From a virus: DNA of 64,000 nucleotides. Under the pieces are notes generated by a model. It saw only the letters and a program-made list of their open reading frames with translations, was not told the origin of the DNA and did not search any database. The translations under genes were made by a program, and so were the position numbers. Each line of letters begins with the position of its first letter. Position 1 is the stretch's first letter. The stretch is taken from positions 124,001-188,000 of the IMG/VR virus record IMGVR_UViG_3300044712_001462; one strand, written 5' to 3'. This document shows, one piece after another, positions 4,120 through 24,956 of this stretch.

Positions 4120-4520
4120 GCGCTCTCCTCATACCTCTTCATCTGTTTTGCCCGACACTCAGCACACTTCGTCGTAATCCAGCCTCGAGGGGCCGCAACG
4201 GTAACCCCCTCTGTAGAGCCGCACTCCTCACATATCTCATACGATCGCTTTTCAGCCTGCTCTACCGCGTTATACGCCTCGATAGACGAGCCAGACGTGT
4301 AAAATCTCAAGCCCCCAAATTTCTCTTTGATCTGGTAGATCTCGAAATCTTCGGGAACTCCTAATTGTTCCAGCTCTAGGCAGAGATCCCAGAGCAGCTG
4401 AAACCAACCATCCGCACATTCCAGCCCAAACGCCATATTGGATTCCATCGGGGACTTTGTCATCCCGCGGAACCAATTAGGCCATCTCGCTGGGAACTTA
4501 TTTGCTAACTCTTTGCGCAT
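4116..4520 (-). CDS. Conserved phage protein with C-terminal zinc motif
   Basis: The central pattern FEIYQIKEKFGGLRFYTSGS followed by CEECG and CAEC pairs is familiar from uncharacterised proteins in many tailed phages. The 134-residue length fits. Four cysteines at the C-terminus probably bind zinc. It overlaps both neighbours by a few bases. Confidence 0.75.
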   Translation of the reverse strand: MRKELANKFPARWPNWFRGMTKSPMESNMAFGLECADGWFQLLWDLCLELEQLGVPEDFEIYQIKEKFGGLRFYTSGSSIEAYNAVEQAEKRSYEICEECGSTEGVTVAAPRGWITTKCAECRAKQMKRYEESA

Positions 4521-4951
4521 AGTACCTCGTGAGCTTTCCGGTAGTCTTTTACCAGTAAGTCAAAGTGATGAGTGTGATGATCGAGAGCATATTCAGGGAT
4601 CTGGGCCCCGACGTTCGCAAAGGGAATCAGCGCCGTCGTCAGACTTTGGATCTGCTTACGCGCTGCAGAAAGTGGATGATCTGGACATTGTTCAACATGC
4701 TGAGTTAGCACATCGGCCATGGAAACCGGTGTACTATCCGCAGGTCCGTAGCGATGCCCGCAGTAAACACAGTTTACGTATGTGCCTTCCTGCAAGTCAT
4801 TAACCTGAGATTCAAGCCGCCCAATACGAGCTTTGAGATCCTTAATCTCCTGAGCTTGGGCGTCACAGATCAATGCGAGGTCTGACTTTAAAACATCAGA
4901 ATCTACCTGAAACGTCCTGTTACACTGAGGACAATCCGCTTCAATTAACAT
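4505..4951 (-). CDS. Conserved phage protein with two Cys pairs and a coiled coil
   Basis: It opens with CPQCNRTFQV, continues with a short coiled coil (about 30-55), then has CVYCGHRYGP and HVEQCPDHPLS, a C2HC-like zinc motif I recognise from phage hypothetical proteins. The C-terminal helical region is unassigned. No catalytic residues are visible. Confidence 0.75.
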   Translation of the reverse strand: MLIEADCPQCNRTFQVDSDVLKSDLALICDAQAQEIKDLKARIGRLESQVNDLQEGTYVNCVYCGHRYGPADSTPVSMADVLTQHVEQCPDHPLSAARKQIQSLTTALIPFANVGAQIPEYALDHHTHHFDLLVKDYRKAHEVLCAKS

Positions 4952-5136
4952 TCCTCATCCCCCGTCGTGTCCAACAGAACATAGAGTCGCGCACAACAAG
5001 CCAGGTGTACGGAAACAGCTAACGCCGAGGCTATGTAACTACCCGTCCCTGTAACGTTGTACATAGCTATCACGGCGCAGATGAGCGTCAGCACTACCCA
5101 GAGCAGGCACCACAGTTTCTCACTCATACGATTCAT
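4945..5136 (-). CDS. Small membrane protein, 63 aa
   Basis: Two hydrophobic segments (about 8-28 and 33-53) predict a small inner-membrane protein. No lysis-protein signature is visible. It is overlapped by genes at both ends. Confidence 0.65.
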   Translation of the reverse strand: MNRMSEKLWCLLWVVLTLICAVIAMYNVTGTGSYIASALAVSVHLACCARLYVLLDTTGDEEC

Positions 5137-17574: not shown

Positions 17575-17603
17575 ATTATGCCGCCATTTTCAACGAAATT
17601 TAG
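17575..17603 (-). promoter_or_regulatory. Phage promoter, CTAAATT-N16-CATAAT
   Basis: Perfect copy of the shared motif; CTAAATT includes the stop codon of the 395-aa gene. Predicted start near 17568. Confidence 0.75.
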
Positions 17604-18787
17604 GCAGCTTCAGCCGTCTCAGTCTCCTTGTCAGAGGGCTCCTCAGCCGGGACCGGGTCAGGTCGCAACACCTTTCTTCGGGTCGTCTCAGAAGACATAC
17701 CCATGATCGAGGTGAACAATTCATCCATGCGTCCCAATACGAACTCACGCTGCGTCCCATCTTTCCGCAAACGATTCGCTACCGTCGTAGCATCCTCGCC
17801 TACCCCTTTCAGAACGTTGTGGAGCTCTTCGAACTGGGCCCCAATCTGGCGACCATTCAAGATGCCAAACGGCTCAATCTTCGACTTGTACTCCTCAATC
17901 GCTTTGAAGACGCGCTCAATCACGCCATCCTTAAACGACTTTTGCGTACCATCCTGCCAGCCGCGGATCGAAGACACCATCTGCTGCAAACCCATCGCCA
18001 TCGCTTCTTCGATCAACTCCGCCTGCTTCTCAGCGACTTCGGTAAATTGCGCATTCAGTCGCGCCTGTTGTCGCCGGTATTCAGCCGGGTTCACCGCCTT
18101 CAAATACTCCGGCAACTCGAAGTTGTAGGTCTCAAAGCCCACGCCGATCTCCTGGTGGAGCCGTTCAGACGTCGGGTAATCCGACTCGTCATGCAACTCT
18201 CGGAGACGCTCCCGACACGTCGCCATGACTTCTGACCAGTTATTAGCCAGCTCATCAATAGCCTGCCGGAAGTCTGAGATCAGATCGTTGATCTCATCCA
18301 GGAACACACGCACTTCCTCATTCTGATCCTGTTCGGTCTCCCCGCGGACACCAAACAAGCGCACCCCATCTTCGGGGTACTTGAGGGTTTTCGATTGCCA
18401 GTACTTGATGAGCTTGGCCTTGGCCACCTGAACCGCGTGAATCGAAGGATGCTTCGCATACAACACTTTAGTAAAGCGGAGATGCGAGGGATCGCAGTCC
18501 ACGCTGCCAGCCAGCTTATGCGCTGCATCACCCTTAATCTTCCGGCTCTTACTCAGGTCATTGAACTTCAACCGGAAAGCTCGGGCGACTGCCTTAATGG
18601 TCTGCCCAGCTTCACGATAGCGCTCACGCTGTACCGCACGATCTTCTGCTGGAGGCAGATCCGCCAGCATCTTATCCACCTGCTCTTTGGTCAGGTGCTT
18701 CGTTGTCGTCTTCTTCTTTTTCTTCGACGACTTCTTCCCCACGTGCTGCTTAAGCTTCTGTAACAATTCAGGAGAGATACTTGCCAT
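17600..18787 (-). CDS. DUF3150-like protein paired with AAA+ ATPase
   Basis: The 395-residue protein has a Lys-rich N-terminus (KKSSKKKKKTTTKH), a helical core with W..V...CRERL..L and DYPTSERLHQEIGVGFETY, and a long C-terminal helical region. This resembles DUF3150 proteins known from phages, but the match is by eye. Its ATG overlaps the ATPase stop (TAATG), so the two are coupled and probably work together, perhaps as substrate adaptor and motor. The acidic tail ends at a promoter. Confidence 0.6.
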   Translation of the reverse strand: MASISPELLQKLKQHVGKKSSKKKKKTTTKHLTKEQVDKMLADLPPAEDRAVQRERYREAGQTIKAVARAFRLKFNDLSKSRKIKGDAAHKLAGSVDCDPSHLRFTKVLYAKHPSIHAVQVAKAKLIKYWQSKTLKYPEDGVRLFGVRGETEQDQNEEVRVFLDEINDLISDFRQAIDELANNWSEVMATCRERLRELHDESDYPTSERLHQEIGVGFETYNFELPEYLKAVNPAEYRRQQARLNAQFTEVAEKQAELIEEAMAMGLQQMVSSIRGWQDGTQKSFKDGVIERVFKAIEEYKSKIEPFGILNGRQIGAQFEELHNVLKGVGEDATTVANRLRKDGTQREFVLGRMDELFTSIMGMSSETTRRKVLRPDPVPAEEPSDKETETAEAA

Positions 18788-21700
18788 TAGTTAACATTGG
18801 GTCGAACTACCGACCGCCTCTTACCTCCGCCAGTGATGTCTGACACGCTGACCACTTGTTTCGCTCCTACATCGTAAAGCCCCGGAGCTGAGGCGTTCAA
18901 ACATCGTCCAGAGGCCCAGGCTCGCAGATCCTGCAGTTTGGTATCTGCCATTCGAGTGACAGGTACCACCTGCTTCGCAGCTTCGTCCAGAGAAACCTCA
19001 CGAATTGCCGCTAGGCGACAGCACGCCTTAATTTCAGCACCCGTCCAGCCCTCACTCAGCGTAAGGAGACTGTGCTTCACCTTGTCTGTCCGCGACTCCG
19101 CATGGCCATACAGATGCAAGTAGATCTGCCAAATAGCCAGGCGCTCTTCCTCTGTGGGAACATCCACAAAGAACACCGCATCAAAACGCTCCGCCCGAGA
19201 GAATTCTGGTGGGAGCATCGAGATGTTGTTGCAATTATGAACCACAACCCCAGACGCCATAAACGAGTGATGGGGCTCCTCAATAACCACATCGTAAACA
19301 GTCTGCTCACCAAGCGGAGAGGGTTCAACAGACACCACACTGACCCACTTCTGAGACCAAATACGTCGAACCTGCTCCAGCTCGTCTGCAATTTCGCGAG
19401 CCGCAGACTCGGACATCTTGGCAACATAGTGATCTACAATCACCTGCCACAACTCCGCCGTATCCGCCGATATTAGCGGAGTGTACTGCCTGTAGTTTGG
19501 CAACACCGATGTATAGCGACCAGCCGCTTTTAAAATAATCTCCAAACAATCATGCATTCCCGGAACACTCCGAACTCCATCTCCGTTAACCTCCTTAGGC
19601 CTACATATCCGACTTTTCTTGTCCGGGTGCTGAAACGGAATGAGCTGTGCAAACCGATGACAAGACTCCGAATCGCGGATACTCAGCTTAGTTACATCCT
19701 TGCGAGGAAGCTTTCGCGAAATCGTTGCAACAGAACCTTGAATATCAAATCTCGTTAAGAGAAGTCGAAGCTGGTCGATCATGACTGGGCTAGTTACCGC
19801 AATCTCAATTCGCCCACGTTTACTGATATAGCCCTCGGCGTCAAAAAGACCCGCTATAAAGGACAACACCACATCCTTGTCCGGAGATGCCATTACATCT
19901 TGAGGTATTTCTCGCACACATTGCAGGCATAAGATGTCTGGAAAATACTGCTCAAACCAATCTAACAGAAGACGACGATCCAGATAGATGTAGTACGACT
20001 GTGCTTTTGGACGCTTATCAATAACCTTTGGCTCTACTCCAAACAAACTACGAATCAGCGAGCATAGGTGCTGAGTCAGACCTGCGCTAAACTCAGATAA
20101 TTGAAGCCGATGGGCCTTCCTGTTTAAAAGCTTACCTTTACCCCCGTCCCCGCAGCAAAATCCAAGAAAATACGCCAATTCTGCTGTTAAGTACTCTGGT
20201 TGTTTAACAGGTTTCTGTCGGGATCGTGCTGGTAACGGCAGATACCGTTTTGCGGGTTTTGATCCCACTGGAGCTTTAGCTTTAGAAAGCAATAGATCAT
20301 CAGCAGTAAGATGCTTCGCTTCTTTCTCAGCTATTTTACCGTTTTGAAAGACAAAGAATCTGTGATCAGGCGTTGCATCGATGAACCCAGCTGACGTACG
20401 TATGCGTAGCATGTCGCGAATACCGCGGCTGTACACTAGCCCGGAGCCAGATACCCACTGACCAGTCTCGTCATCCACACTCAGGAACGTTTCACGTTGG
20501 CCTACAAGCGACTCAAGTTTACAGATACGCCCGTCCGCCAACTCAACAAGTGTTCCACCGGCCAAACACGTACCGATGAAAAACACATCTGACGTATGGT
20601 CGTTCAACCAACTGAGTAACTTACCAAAAATGCGATCACCAGAGCCGCCATCTGTCATCGATGATGACTGACCTGCTCCGGACAGTGCTTTCTCGATTTC
20701 CACTTGTGTTACGAGATACCCGTTTCCGGTACCTCTCTTACGGTTACCCGTAAGGTCAGACTATTTCATCCTGTCGCTGCGACAGGGCCCCCGTTTCGAG
20801 ATCACTTGATCTCTACTTCCTTTCGGAATAGTCGTTGAACGTTTCAGTCATAGACTGACTTCGCTGCAGATAATCCAGGCTAGTGGACTTCCCTGCAATT
20901 AGAGGGCTTTGCATCGGCATGTCACCACGCCGAGGGACTAACGTTAATCCACAAAGAGAATGCACGGCTGCATAGCATCAGCCAGCTTCAGAGCCATCCG
21001 GACATTGGCATCCGTTTCACCCTGAAACTTCGATCTGAGTGCGCCCATATCCATCATGAGCACTTTGCGCTGGGTCTCATTACCCATCGCCTTAATGATC
21101 GCACTCTTACCGGCACCAGGCACACCAAGGAGCAGCATACCACGAGGCTGAAGCAGAGGATTATCTCGTCGCCGAAGTAGCTGCTTCGAGAACTCCTTGA
21201 ATTGCTGCAACCCACCCAACTGCGCATAAGTGTCTGTGCCTTTGTAGATCTCCAGTACACCGCGCTTCTTGAGATCCTGAGCCTTCAGGTCCCAGATCTC
21301 ATTGGGATCGAGCTTACCGGTCTTCGCCAGAGACAAACTCAGAGCATCCTCGAAACCACGTCGAGACAATCCCGCCGCAGCATCTAAGACCAGTCGTTTG
21401 TCGTCATCCGTTTTAGGTAACTCCGTCTCCGCACAGATGTTCTTAGCGATCGACCAGAGTTGTTCCTTACCTGGCAGCTCGTGCTCCAGGATTACAAAGT
21501 CCTTCTCTAGCTCTCGAGGGATCTCAATCATCGGAGAGAGCACAATGGCGCAGCAGGAGACCTGGCCCTCCGCCTTACAATCCGTTACCGCGTTCTGCAG
21601 AGCCTGCATGATGGGTAGGTTGTGAACCAGCTGCTGGTGATGGAAATTCTTGAGAATCCAGATGACGTGAGTAGCACCCTCGCTACCCTGGGACTCTTGA

Positions 21701-21981
21701 GCCTGCCGAAGGGCCAGAGACATCACAGGCATGTCCTGAACCAACGGGAGAGGCTTCATCTGGTAGTTAGTATTCTTCGAAATGAAATCTCTTAGCGTCT
21801 CAGCTGTATCTCGGGGGCATTTGAGGCCCGCGGCGAAGTCCCACACAATGACCGGCCATTGTCTCTCAGCACATACCGGTACGATCTCTGCGATAGCATC
21901 CCCAAACTCATAAGTCTCAACCCAAAGGCCGGTGAAACCGGCTCGCAAATACTGCCGTACTTGCTCCCCAAGTGCTGGCAC
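18787..21981 (-). CDS. Ycf46-like AAA+ ATPase, interrupted by a group I intron and an intein
   Basis: Coding parts are 21981-20947 (345 aa) and 20700-18787; the first codon is GTG. The host protein after splicing is about 537 aa. It has a Ycf46-type N-terminal domain (IVWDFAAGLK, about 45-54), Walker A GVPGAGKS (286-293), Walker B ILFVDE split by the intron after Asp 345, the FFIGT/CNN sensor region split by the intein, and an RFD arginine motif. ATPases of this kind act as chaperone-like motors; the substrate is unknown. It sits between DUF2997 and DUF3150-like genes. Splicing signals in both elements look intact, so the protein is probably active. Confidence 0.85.
19234..20568 (-). mobile_element. 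Intein with LAGLIDADG homing endonuclease, 445 aa
   Basis: The intein begins with Cys 1 (CLAGGTLVELADGR), has the block B histidine in ATPDHRFFV, two DOD endonuclease motifs (FLGFCCGDG and IAGLFDAEG) and ends VVVHN before the extein Cys. All residues for standard splicing are present, and both DOD motifs keep their acidic residues, so homing may be active. Insertion is between FFIGT and CNN of the ATPase sensor region, only 132 bases from the intron site. Confidence 0.92.
20701..20946 (-). ncRNA. Group I self-splicing intron, 246 nt, no ORF
   Basis: Exon 1 ends GTGGAT and exon 2 resumes GAAATCGAG, restoring FVDEIEKAL. The intron starts after a U and ends in G (20701), as group I introns do. 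The R element GTTCAACGACTATT (20829-20840 core) and matching S element GATGAAATAGTCTG (20757-20770) form P7, and extra hairpins lie between them. No endonuclease is encoded, so it is a minimal ribozyme, possibly mobilised in trans. Subgroup IA is likely but not proven. Confidence 0.9.
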
Positions 21982-22175
21982 TAATTCGTCTCCTGTTGGT
22001 AGTCTGTCCCCAACTCCGGATTGTAGAACTCAGGTAGGAGCTCTGGTTCACCCAGAGGGACTCCCATCTTGTTGGCGAAGTTCTGCGCAATCTTCAGACA
22101 CCCCTCACCCTGGTGTCCTTCCACAGTCATCTTAAAGCGCCCATCGGGCCCGCTGGTAAACACTAGCTTTGTCAT
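21981..22175 (-). CDS. DUF2997 family protein, 64 aa
   Basis: The sequence has the DUF2997 pattern: FTSGPDGRFKMTVEGHQGEG, a Cys, a helix and the C-terminal PEFYN. In cyanobacteria and others DUF2997 genes sit beside ycf46-type ATPases and DUF1257 genes, as here. The ATG at 22175 follows GGGAG; the stop TAG overlaps the ATPase GTG. Function unknown. Confidence 0.75.
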   Translation of the reverse strand: MTKLVFTSGPDGRFKMTVEGHQGEGCLKIAQNFANKMGVPLGEPELLPEFYNPELGTDYQQETN

Positions 22176-22372
22176 CGAATCAGCTCCCATTCTCCAATTG
22201 TCGGCAGCAAGTCCACCAACGTTTTCCTACGTTCAGCGGCAGTTTCTAACATCGCGTTATACTTAGATAGCTCTCGCAAAATTGAATTCTCCAGAACGAG
22301 TACTTTGTTCTCAGCGGTCAGCCGCTCTACCTCGCTCTGCAGTACAAGATTTTCATTTACGCCTAATCCCAT
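22172..22372 (-). CDS. Coiled-coil protein, 66 aa
   Basis: Starts MGLGVNENLVLQSEVERLTA; heptad leucines continue to about residue 35. Linked by a four-base overlap to DUF2997. Function unknown. Confidence 0.65.
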   Translation of the reverse strand: MGLGVNENLVLQSEVERLTAENKVLVLENSILRELSKYNAMLETAAERRKTLVDLLPTIGEWELIR

Positions 22373-23447: not shown

Positions 23448-23729
23448 TTACACTTTGTATCCGCGTTTCCTCAATTCCGCGTCAGCATGTACCACGCTGC
23501 CAGGGATACTAGTAGAGCGCATGGGCTCAGGGCGCGTCGAGGTTGCCTCAAAAAAACACTGGAGAGCGCGCCTGCTCGTAAAAATCCGTCCACCTATGCG
23601 CAGAGTATCTAACAGAACCCCGCGATAACCGACGGTGGCCCAGCGCCAGACTGTCGAAGAAGATGTTTTCCCAGGTAACGCCTTCGCTGCCTCAGAGAGC
23701 GAAAGCACGTCTTCGTCGTCGAATTTCAA
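23448..23729 (-). CDS. DUF1580 protein, probable excisionase-like DNA-binding protein
   Basis: The 93-residue protein shows LSLSEAAKALPG, TVWRWATVGYRG and a C-terminal FTSRRALQCFFEA, the pattern of DUF1580, a helix-turn-helix family found largely in Planctomycetota next to integrases. The start is TTG behind GGAGGAA, overlapping the integrase end by four bases. It likely directs excision or regulates integrase, by analogy with MerR-like excisionases. Confidence 0.8.
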   Translation of the reverse strand: MKFDDEDVLSLSEAAKALPGKTSSSTVWRWATVGYRGVLLDTLRIGGRIFTSRRALQCFFEATSTRPEPMRSTSIPGSVVHADAELRKRGYKV

Positions 23730-24919
23730 CCAAATTCCTCCGCAATTGATCGAGCCAGCTTCAAGTTCTTCTCCGCGTAGATTTCGCTGGTGCGAATATG
23801 CTTGTGCCCTAACAACACCTGGCTGCCTTCTACCCCGTACTTTTCACGTACGCGAGTAGCAAGGTTGTGCCGGAGCTGATTAGGAGCCCACGGAGTTACT
23901 CCTGCTGTGATACACGCTCGCTGAACTGCGCGCCGATAGGAATTGTGGTCATAGTGTGTCCCAGGTGATTTCACACGTCTTATCTTGCGGTTAGAGCCTG
24001 GTTTGTTACCGCACGATACGGGAGTAGTGCGCCGCTTATGTCGGGCGGCTAAACGCTGCTCTTCCGCCTCCCGCGGTGAAAAGCAGTATTCCAAGGGTGA
24101 TCGTTGCAAAAAGCGACGGAGTATTTTCTGCGCCCGTCGCCCTATCGAAATTTCCCTGCGAGCATCTTCCTGGTGTGCCAGCTTGTGATCAGGTGGCACG
24201 TAGAGCCACACGGGATCTTTCATGGAAATATCACACGGCCTGAGAAGACAGATCTCCATCGGCCTCATCCCTGTCCAGTACTGCAAACGAACCATCTGCG
24301 CCACCACTTTGGGCAGGTATGGAATCGTCTGTCTCAAGTCTTTCTCAGGCACCGGCAAAATCTTTTCGGTCTCCCTGGCCTTCGTCAGCCCTTTTCTTAA
24401 CCCTTCGAGGGTATTGAGATGAGCATGCGTATTCTTCTCTACCAGCCCAGCGCTCTCTGCCCACTTGAAGAGCCGCTTCACACAACCGATATACCGGTTC
24501 ACCGTGGAGCGCGAGAGCTTGCCTTCGCGGACTAACTGGGACTGGAGATCTCGGAGAGACCGAGCATCAAAGCGATCAGCTAACGTGTGCCCATAGTATT
24601 TGAGCAGCACATCGTTAGCCGCCTTGATTACCGCTACCTGGGAGGATAGCTTCCCCCTCTTAGACTGGTAACGGATATCCACGAACTCGTCCAGATAGCG
24701 CAGGACGAGGTGGTTGACGAACAGCGGTTGAGACCTCTCTTTGGCCACCACCGCGGACCCAGGATGCACCTGCCTCCCAGCGAGATGGTCGGCAATGAGC
24801 TGCGTACCCTGCGCCTCTGCAGAGCTCTTTTCCCGGCCTAAATAAATTCGCTTTCCAGCGATGTGAACGTAGAACTGACCGGTTGCGGCATGCAGACGAA
24901 CTTGGGGTTTGCGTGGCAT
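23726..24919 (-). CDS. int: Tyrosine recombinase (phage integrase)
   Basis: The 397-residue protein starts MPRKPQVRLHAATGQFYVHI, typical of planctomycete integrases, has a SAM-like core-binding domain (about 65-160) and catalytic residues Arg 219, Arg 350, His 372 and Tyr 381 (EIYAEKN). The HxxR motif reads NQLR, with Asn for the first His, as in some relatives. It would join phage and host DNA at att sites. A longer frame upstream starts inside the palindrome; ATG 24919 is preferred. Confidence 0.92.
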   Translation of the reverse strand: MPRKPQVRLHAATGQFYVHIAGKRIYLGREKSSAEAQGTQLIADHLAGRQVHPGSAVVAKERSQPLFVNHLVLRYLDEFVDIRYQSKRGKLSSQVAVIKAANDVLLKYYGHTLADRFDARSLRDLQSQLVREGKLSRSTVNRYIGCVKRLFKWAESAGLVEKNTHAHLNTLEGLRKGLTKARETEKILPVPEKDLRQTIPYLPKVVAQMVRLQYWTGMRPMEICLLRPCDISMKDPVWLYVPPDHKLAHQEDARREISIGRRAQKILRRFLQRSPLEYCFSPREAEEQRLAARHKRRTTPVSCGNKPGSNRKIRRVKSPGTHYDHNSYRRAVQRACITAGVTPWAPNQLRHNLATRVREKYGVEGSQVLLGHKHIRTSEIYAEKNLKLARSIAEEFG

Positions 24920-24930
24920 GGCTGACCTTT

Positions 24931-24956
24931 TTAGTTGGTAGTCGACTACCAACTAA
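24931..24956. repeat. 26-bp perfect palindrome upstream of int
   Basis: TTAGTTGGTAGTC is followed by its exact reverse complement, 12 bases upstream of the integrase ATG. Each half contains AGTTGGTAGT, which recurs twice at 25187-25207 beyond the tRNA-like sequence. Likely an integrase arm site or an autoregulatory operator. Confidence 0.8.

Follow-up and report, generated by a model that had tools for sequence, protein, structure and literature searches.

Results

Organization of the interrupted ATPase gene

The DNA analysed here (the window) is a 64-kb stretch that spans positions 124001-188000 in a virus record of 224,528 bases (record label G000). On its minus strand, a gene for an AAA+ ATPase begins with GTG at 21981, ends with its stop codon at 18787, and overlaps its neighbours at both ends: the stop of a DUF2997 gene lies at the GTG, and the stop of the ATPase gene lies over the next ATG. 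The features of the locus, in the direction of transcription, are as follows.

21981..22190, minus strand: DUF2997 gene (PF11211; 26 bits against a cut-off of 24.1), upstream of the ATPase gene
20947..21981, minus strand: exon 1, with the N-terminal domain and Walker A (GVPGAGKS), ending at FVD of Walker B
20701..20946, minus strand: group I intron of 246 nt without an ORF, opening with an in-frame UAA and ending in G (RF00028, 71 bits; covariation with 5 orthologous introns)
20935..20950, minus strand: P1 of the intron, formed by GGAU of the 5' exon and GUCC of the intron, which places the splice site at a U-G pair (invariant in 6/6 introns)
20829..20833, minus strand: 5' strand of P7, GACUA (invariant in 6/6 introns)
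20770..20786, minus strand: P8 hairpin of the intron, with a tight loop (alignment of six introns)
20759..20763, minus strand: 3' strand of P7, UAGUC, forming a pseudoknot with 20829-20833 (invariant in 6/6 introns)
20569..20700, minus strand: exon 2, 132 nt, 44 codons, EIEKAL...VFFIGT
19234..20568, minus strand: intein of 445 aa, Cys1...His-Asn with a +1 Cys, at FFIGT/CNN (sensor 1) (Pfam and NCBIfam)
20140..20175, minus strand: LAGLIDADG motif 1 of the intein, AYFLGFCCGDGG (motif and Pfam domain)
19831..19860, minus strand: LAGLIDADG motif 2 of the intein, FIAGLFDAEG (LAGLIDADG_3, 4e-14)
18787..19233, minus strand: exon 3, CNNISMLPPEF, arginine finger region SRAERFD, lid, C terminus and stop
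17600..18787, minus strand: gene for a 395-aa protein whose family was not recognised, downstream of the ATPase gene

The ATPase frame is open only when 20946-20701 is excised as RNA. Joining 20947 to 20700 (21981-20947 plus 20700-18787) yields an open frame of 982 aa that reads ...CILFVD/EIEKAL... across the joint, and the exons contain no stop codons. The 132-nt exon 2 is the only spacer between the intron and the intein. An earlier note on this DNA had placed a 246-nt intron at Walker B and a 445-aa intein at sensor 1, and its coordinates, sizes and frames proved exact to the base.

Homologs of the 395-aa protein were present in 103 fetched loci, a count that includes some contigs fetched twice; in the loci that were examined, they followed the ATPase gene on its downstream side. 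The protein is a candidate functional partner of the ATPase, and the position of the DUF2997 and 395-aa genes on either side of it suggests a conserved operon. The ATPase homolog of a Rhizobium phage likewise adjoins DUF1257 and DUF2997. The window also encodes a tyrosine integrase at 23726-24952 (Pfam 5e-15), which suggests that the virus may have a temperate life style.

The group I intron in Walker B

The Rfam model RF00028 matched 20956-20737 on the minus strand over its full length (model positions 1-253) with 71 bits (cut-off 50 bits; E 5e-16 in the 64-kb window), and this was the one match in the whole 224.5-kb record. The intron lies in Walker B, directly after FVD. Since it opens with UAA as the first codon past exon 1, translation of the unspliced RNA halts just past FVD. 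Many other splice joints would also keep the frame; these were rejected, since only 20947/20700 combines a U-G pair and an intron-final G with the FVDEIEK consensus. Hairpins P7.1 and P7.2 between P7 and P3' are the hallmark of subgroup IA, and the window intron, which has both, is subgroup-IA-like.

A group I intron at the same codon was found in six IMG/VR contigs (L070, L071, L073, L075, L076 and L077), which represent five distinct sequences because L070 and L071 are identical in this stretch. These introns are about 808-813 nt long and score 67-73 bits with RF00028, and their cores are 67-69% identical to that of the window intron. Each carries an HNH ORF in loop L8, at the place where the window intron has its tight hairpin; in L070 this ORF comprises 186 codons (Pfam HNH 3e-6). 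None of the six contigs has the intein.

The six intron cores (the window and its five distinct orthologs) were aligned on a group I structure that included the P3/P7 pseudoknot. Across 77 pairs, 99.8% of cells were paired, and two-sided changes occurred in 27 of the 77. None of 500 shuffles scored as high, and sliding the structure by 1-3 columns reduced the number to 0-2. P7 was invariant, and the remaining helices covary. The GGAU/GUCC P1 with U-G at the 5' splice site, the terminal G and an in-frame stop right after exon 1 were all retained in six of six introns. The introns are orthologous and share a conserved fold.

No HNH gene that might mobilise the intron in trans was found in the 224.5-kb record, and the window intron appears either to have lost its HNH ORF or never to have had one. 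Local similarity to the window intron was seen in unannotated stretches of many phages. In Serratia phage 2050HW (L264, 1-3062), the annotation splits the RNA polymerase beta gene into two parts that flank an endonuclease, beside an intron-core-like stretch, and this gene probably holds an unannotated group I intron.

The intein at sensor 1

The intein occupies residues 390-834 of the precursor, between FFIGT and CNN. It was recognised by Pfam Intein_splicing (PF14890; 50.2 bits, 3e-13, cut-off 35.8) and LAGLIDADG_3 (PF14528; 53 bits, 4e-14, cut-off 22.5), and by NCBIfam intein_Nterm (27.9 bits against a cut-off of 24.5) and intein_Cterm (19.5 against 15.6). The splicing residues are present, namely Cys1, TPDH in block B, the VVVHN end and the +1 Cys, and both LAGLIDADG motifs keep their acidic residues (GFCCGDGG and GLFDAEG). 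A single-sequence AlphaFold model of the intein alone was uninformative (pLDDT 42). The GC3 of the intein is 0.45, compared with 0.61 for exon 1 and 0.56 for exon 3, a difference that slightly favours a later arrival of the intein. No close relatives of the intein were found in phages or IMG/VR, and distant ones occurred only in 14 of 294 Planctomycetota genomes.

The same sensor-1 site is occupied in another contig (L235, about 4520-4990) by a nuclease-free mini-intein of 157 aa (T/C...HN/CNN), which matches the window intein with a BLASTP value of 2e-7. Because L235 re-uses the intein site without an intron, the intron and intein sites are filled separately elsewhere. A related ATPase (L262, 2201-4900) has an intein with an HNH_3 nuclease in its P-loop (GVPG/C...VHN/CGKS). 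With this P-loop intein added, the P-loop, Walker B and sensor 1 are all targets of splicing elements in the ATPase family.

Two further regions of the record, both outside the window, resemble inteins. At about 116.2-119.3 kb (L250), an RNA polymerase beta'-like phage protein has a LAGLIDADG_2 intein upstream of NADFDGDQM. At about 197.0-200.2 kb (L252) lies an intein-like MDRMC...VITGN/CYG, with 16.9 bits for Intein_splicing, below the cut-off; this protein carries a probable third intein of the record.

The uninterrupted ATPase and its family

The joined exteins form an AAA+ ATPase of 537 aa that matches PF00004 (AAA) with 95 bits; exon 1 is matched by Pfam AAA also by itself. Walker A, Walker B and sensor 1 lie at residues 286, 340 and 385 of the joined protein, which aligned with phrog_8638 over residues 6-515 at 7e-78, with both joints inside the match. 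Uninterrupted homologs align straight across both joints, as in L002 (VVLIDEIEKSL...FFIGTCNN). They are encoded by phages of Mycobacterium, Rhizobium, Agrobacterium, Rhodobacter and Aeromonas and by many IMG/VR contigs, of which several are about 200 kb long, and they also occur in Planctomycetota (43-46% identity), including Rhodopirellula and Neorhodopirellula. The Planctomycetota homologs suggest that the virus may have a planctomycete host. Identity to cyanobacterial AAA proteins was about 30-32% over about 365 residues; a "Ycf46-type" assignment, drawn solely from this identity and the DUF2997 neighbour, is plausible. The earlier note had also predicted a group I core, an intein, and alignment of the joined exons with uninterrupted homologs across FVD-EIEKAL and FFIGT-CNN. 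The covariance search with the covarying core pairs, the two Pfam intein domains above their cut-offs, and the phrog_8638 match bear out these predictions in turn.

One large branch of the family is permuted. In at least 21 ATPase homologs (L005 2989-4581, L227-L229, L231-L233 and L235-L248), among them the ATPase with the mini-intein, Walker B (DEIEK) precedes Walker A by 41-47 residues and sensor 1 follows about 100 residues past Walker B; Walker A and B are both highly conserved. The Walker-B unit is relocated ahead of the P-loop strand. AlphaFold with 19 rows modelled a permuted ATPase at pLDDT 86 and pTM 0.79, with p97/Cdc48 as a Foldseek match. A literature search found no report of a Walker B-before-Walker A arrangement.

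Distribution of the two elements

Most relatives of the ATPase have neither intron nor intein. The host tree shows at least 5 changes of intron state, and within the sister pairs L070/L016 and L076/L046 (SH-aLRT 100) the two members do not agree in this state. The distribution of the intron is therefore patchy and discordant between sisters, as expected for a mobile intron. The window ATPase falls outside the clade of HNH-intron carriers. A placement beside the permuted homologs in a quick FastTree run was dropped, because those rows lack Walker B and the branch lengths are large. No second double-occupied genome was found among the relatives retrieved via exon 3, which avoids both sites, or via exon 1. 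The simplest account of this history is that the two elements arrived separately, and that the HNH ORF was then lost or was absent from the start.

Discussion

Both elements and both joints are present in the gene. From their sequences we infer that the two elements splice, that the intein nuclease is active and that the elements arrived separately. It is very likely, in our judgement, that this phage AAA+ ATPase gene carries two unrelated self-splicing elements of separate arrival, and that RNA splicing followed by protein splicing produces the 537-aa ATPase. The ribozyme would use its terminal G and the pairing of GGAU with GUCC to ligate FVD to EIEKAL. The spliced mRNA would then be translated into the 982-aa precursor, from which the intein would excise itself through Cys1, His-Asn and the +1 Cys to leave an ATPase with Walker B and sensor 1 intact. 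Because unspliced RNA stops at the UAA after FVD, no active ATPase is expected before both splicing steps. In related phages the intron lineage would home by the HNH nuclease encoded in L8, whose ORF is missing in the window phage, and the intein with its full LAGLIDADG nuclease would be the potentially mobile partner.

A more intimate relation between the two elements is conceivable, though we consider it unlikely. A LAGLIDADG cut 132 bp away may co-convert the nuclease-less intron into intron-less alleles, so that the two would form a composite unit of RNA and protein, and the intron, hitchhiking on the intein endonuclease, would no longer have needed an HNH gene of its own. This agrees with an HNH ORF in the orthologous introns but not in the window intron, with a record in which no HNH gene was found, and with the intact nuclease motifs of the intein; PMC10643990 cites precedents between other element types (mobE/I-TevIII and I-PogI). 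However, plain decay of the HNH ORF, which is frequent in homing cycles, accounts for the identical facts, and adjacent inteins hampered co-homing in Haloferax (PMC10643990). The proposal also rests on one double-occupied genome, in which co-inheritance is not visible.

That the two splicing steps are retained as a switch, which would delay or condition ATPase activity, appears less probable still. With both insertions in catalytic motifs, nothing active results until the RNA and the protein have been spliced; an in-frame stop right past exon 1 is kept in 6/6 introns; and for inteins and phage introns at large such roles have been suggested (PMC5050341, PMC11878797). Most relatives, however, lack both elements, so a switch is not a conserved need, and homing nucleases are expected to target conserved motifs anyway (PMC2814812). 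As for a broken gene with chance matches, produced by assembly or decay, the virus record is one metagenomic contig, known from a single assembly, but exact consensus motifs are restored at both joints between stop-free exons, which makes this reading scarcely credible, and for the intron it is refuted by the same-codon orthologs in independent contigs with their compensatory changes.

The ATPase family offers several natural states: empty, an intron with HNH, an intein only, and an HNH-less intron together with a nuclease intein. Set side by side, these states allow a test of whether selfish elements that lie close together but differ in chemistry help each other, interfere or simply coexist.

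Double occupancy of one phage gene by a group I intron and an intein is known, as the earlier note had in part recognised, from bnrdE of Bacillus phage SPbeta (PMC3653736, PMC8270828); it is rare, and not new in itself. That gene encodes a ribonucleotide reductase and is interrupted at other motifs, whereas the window gene encodes an AAA+ ATPase. In the open-access literature we found no published case of an intron plus an intein in this ATPase family. The RF00028 core is common to the window intron and the HNH group I introns of T4-type phages, Twort and Bastillevirinae, and the orthologs of the window intron likewise carry an HNH ORF; the window copy differs in having no ORF and in its insertion in Walker B of an AAA+ ATPase. 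The window intein resembles the LAGLIDADG inteins in P-loop ATPases (terminase, MCM, mycobacteriophage) in being of the class-1 type, with Cys1, HN and +1 Cys, and in its insertion in a catalytic ATPase motif (PMC5050341), but is set apart by its sensor-1 site, its phrog_8638 ATPase host and an RNA-level element 132 nt away. Like the crAss-like phages (PMC7886860), the virus has a large genome with several splicing elements, in the record one intron and, besides the intein described here, two more inteins indicated; in contrast to them, it belongs to another phage group, its hosts are likely Planctomycetota, and the ATPase gene uses the standard code. Two points are new: relatives carry related elements at each of the two sites, and the window intron is without the nuclease ORF of its relatives. 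The ATPase family is a hot spot for splicing elements.
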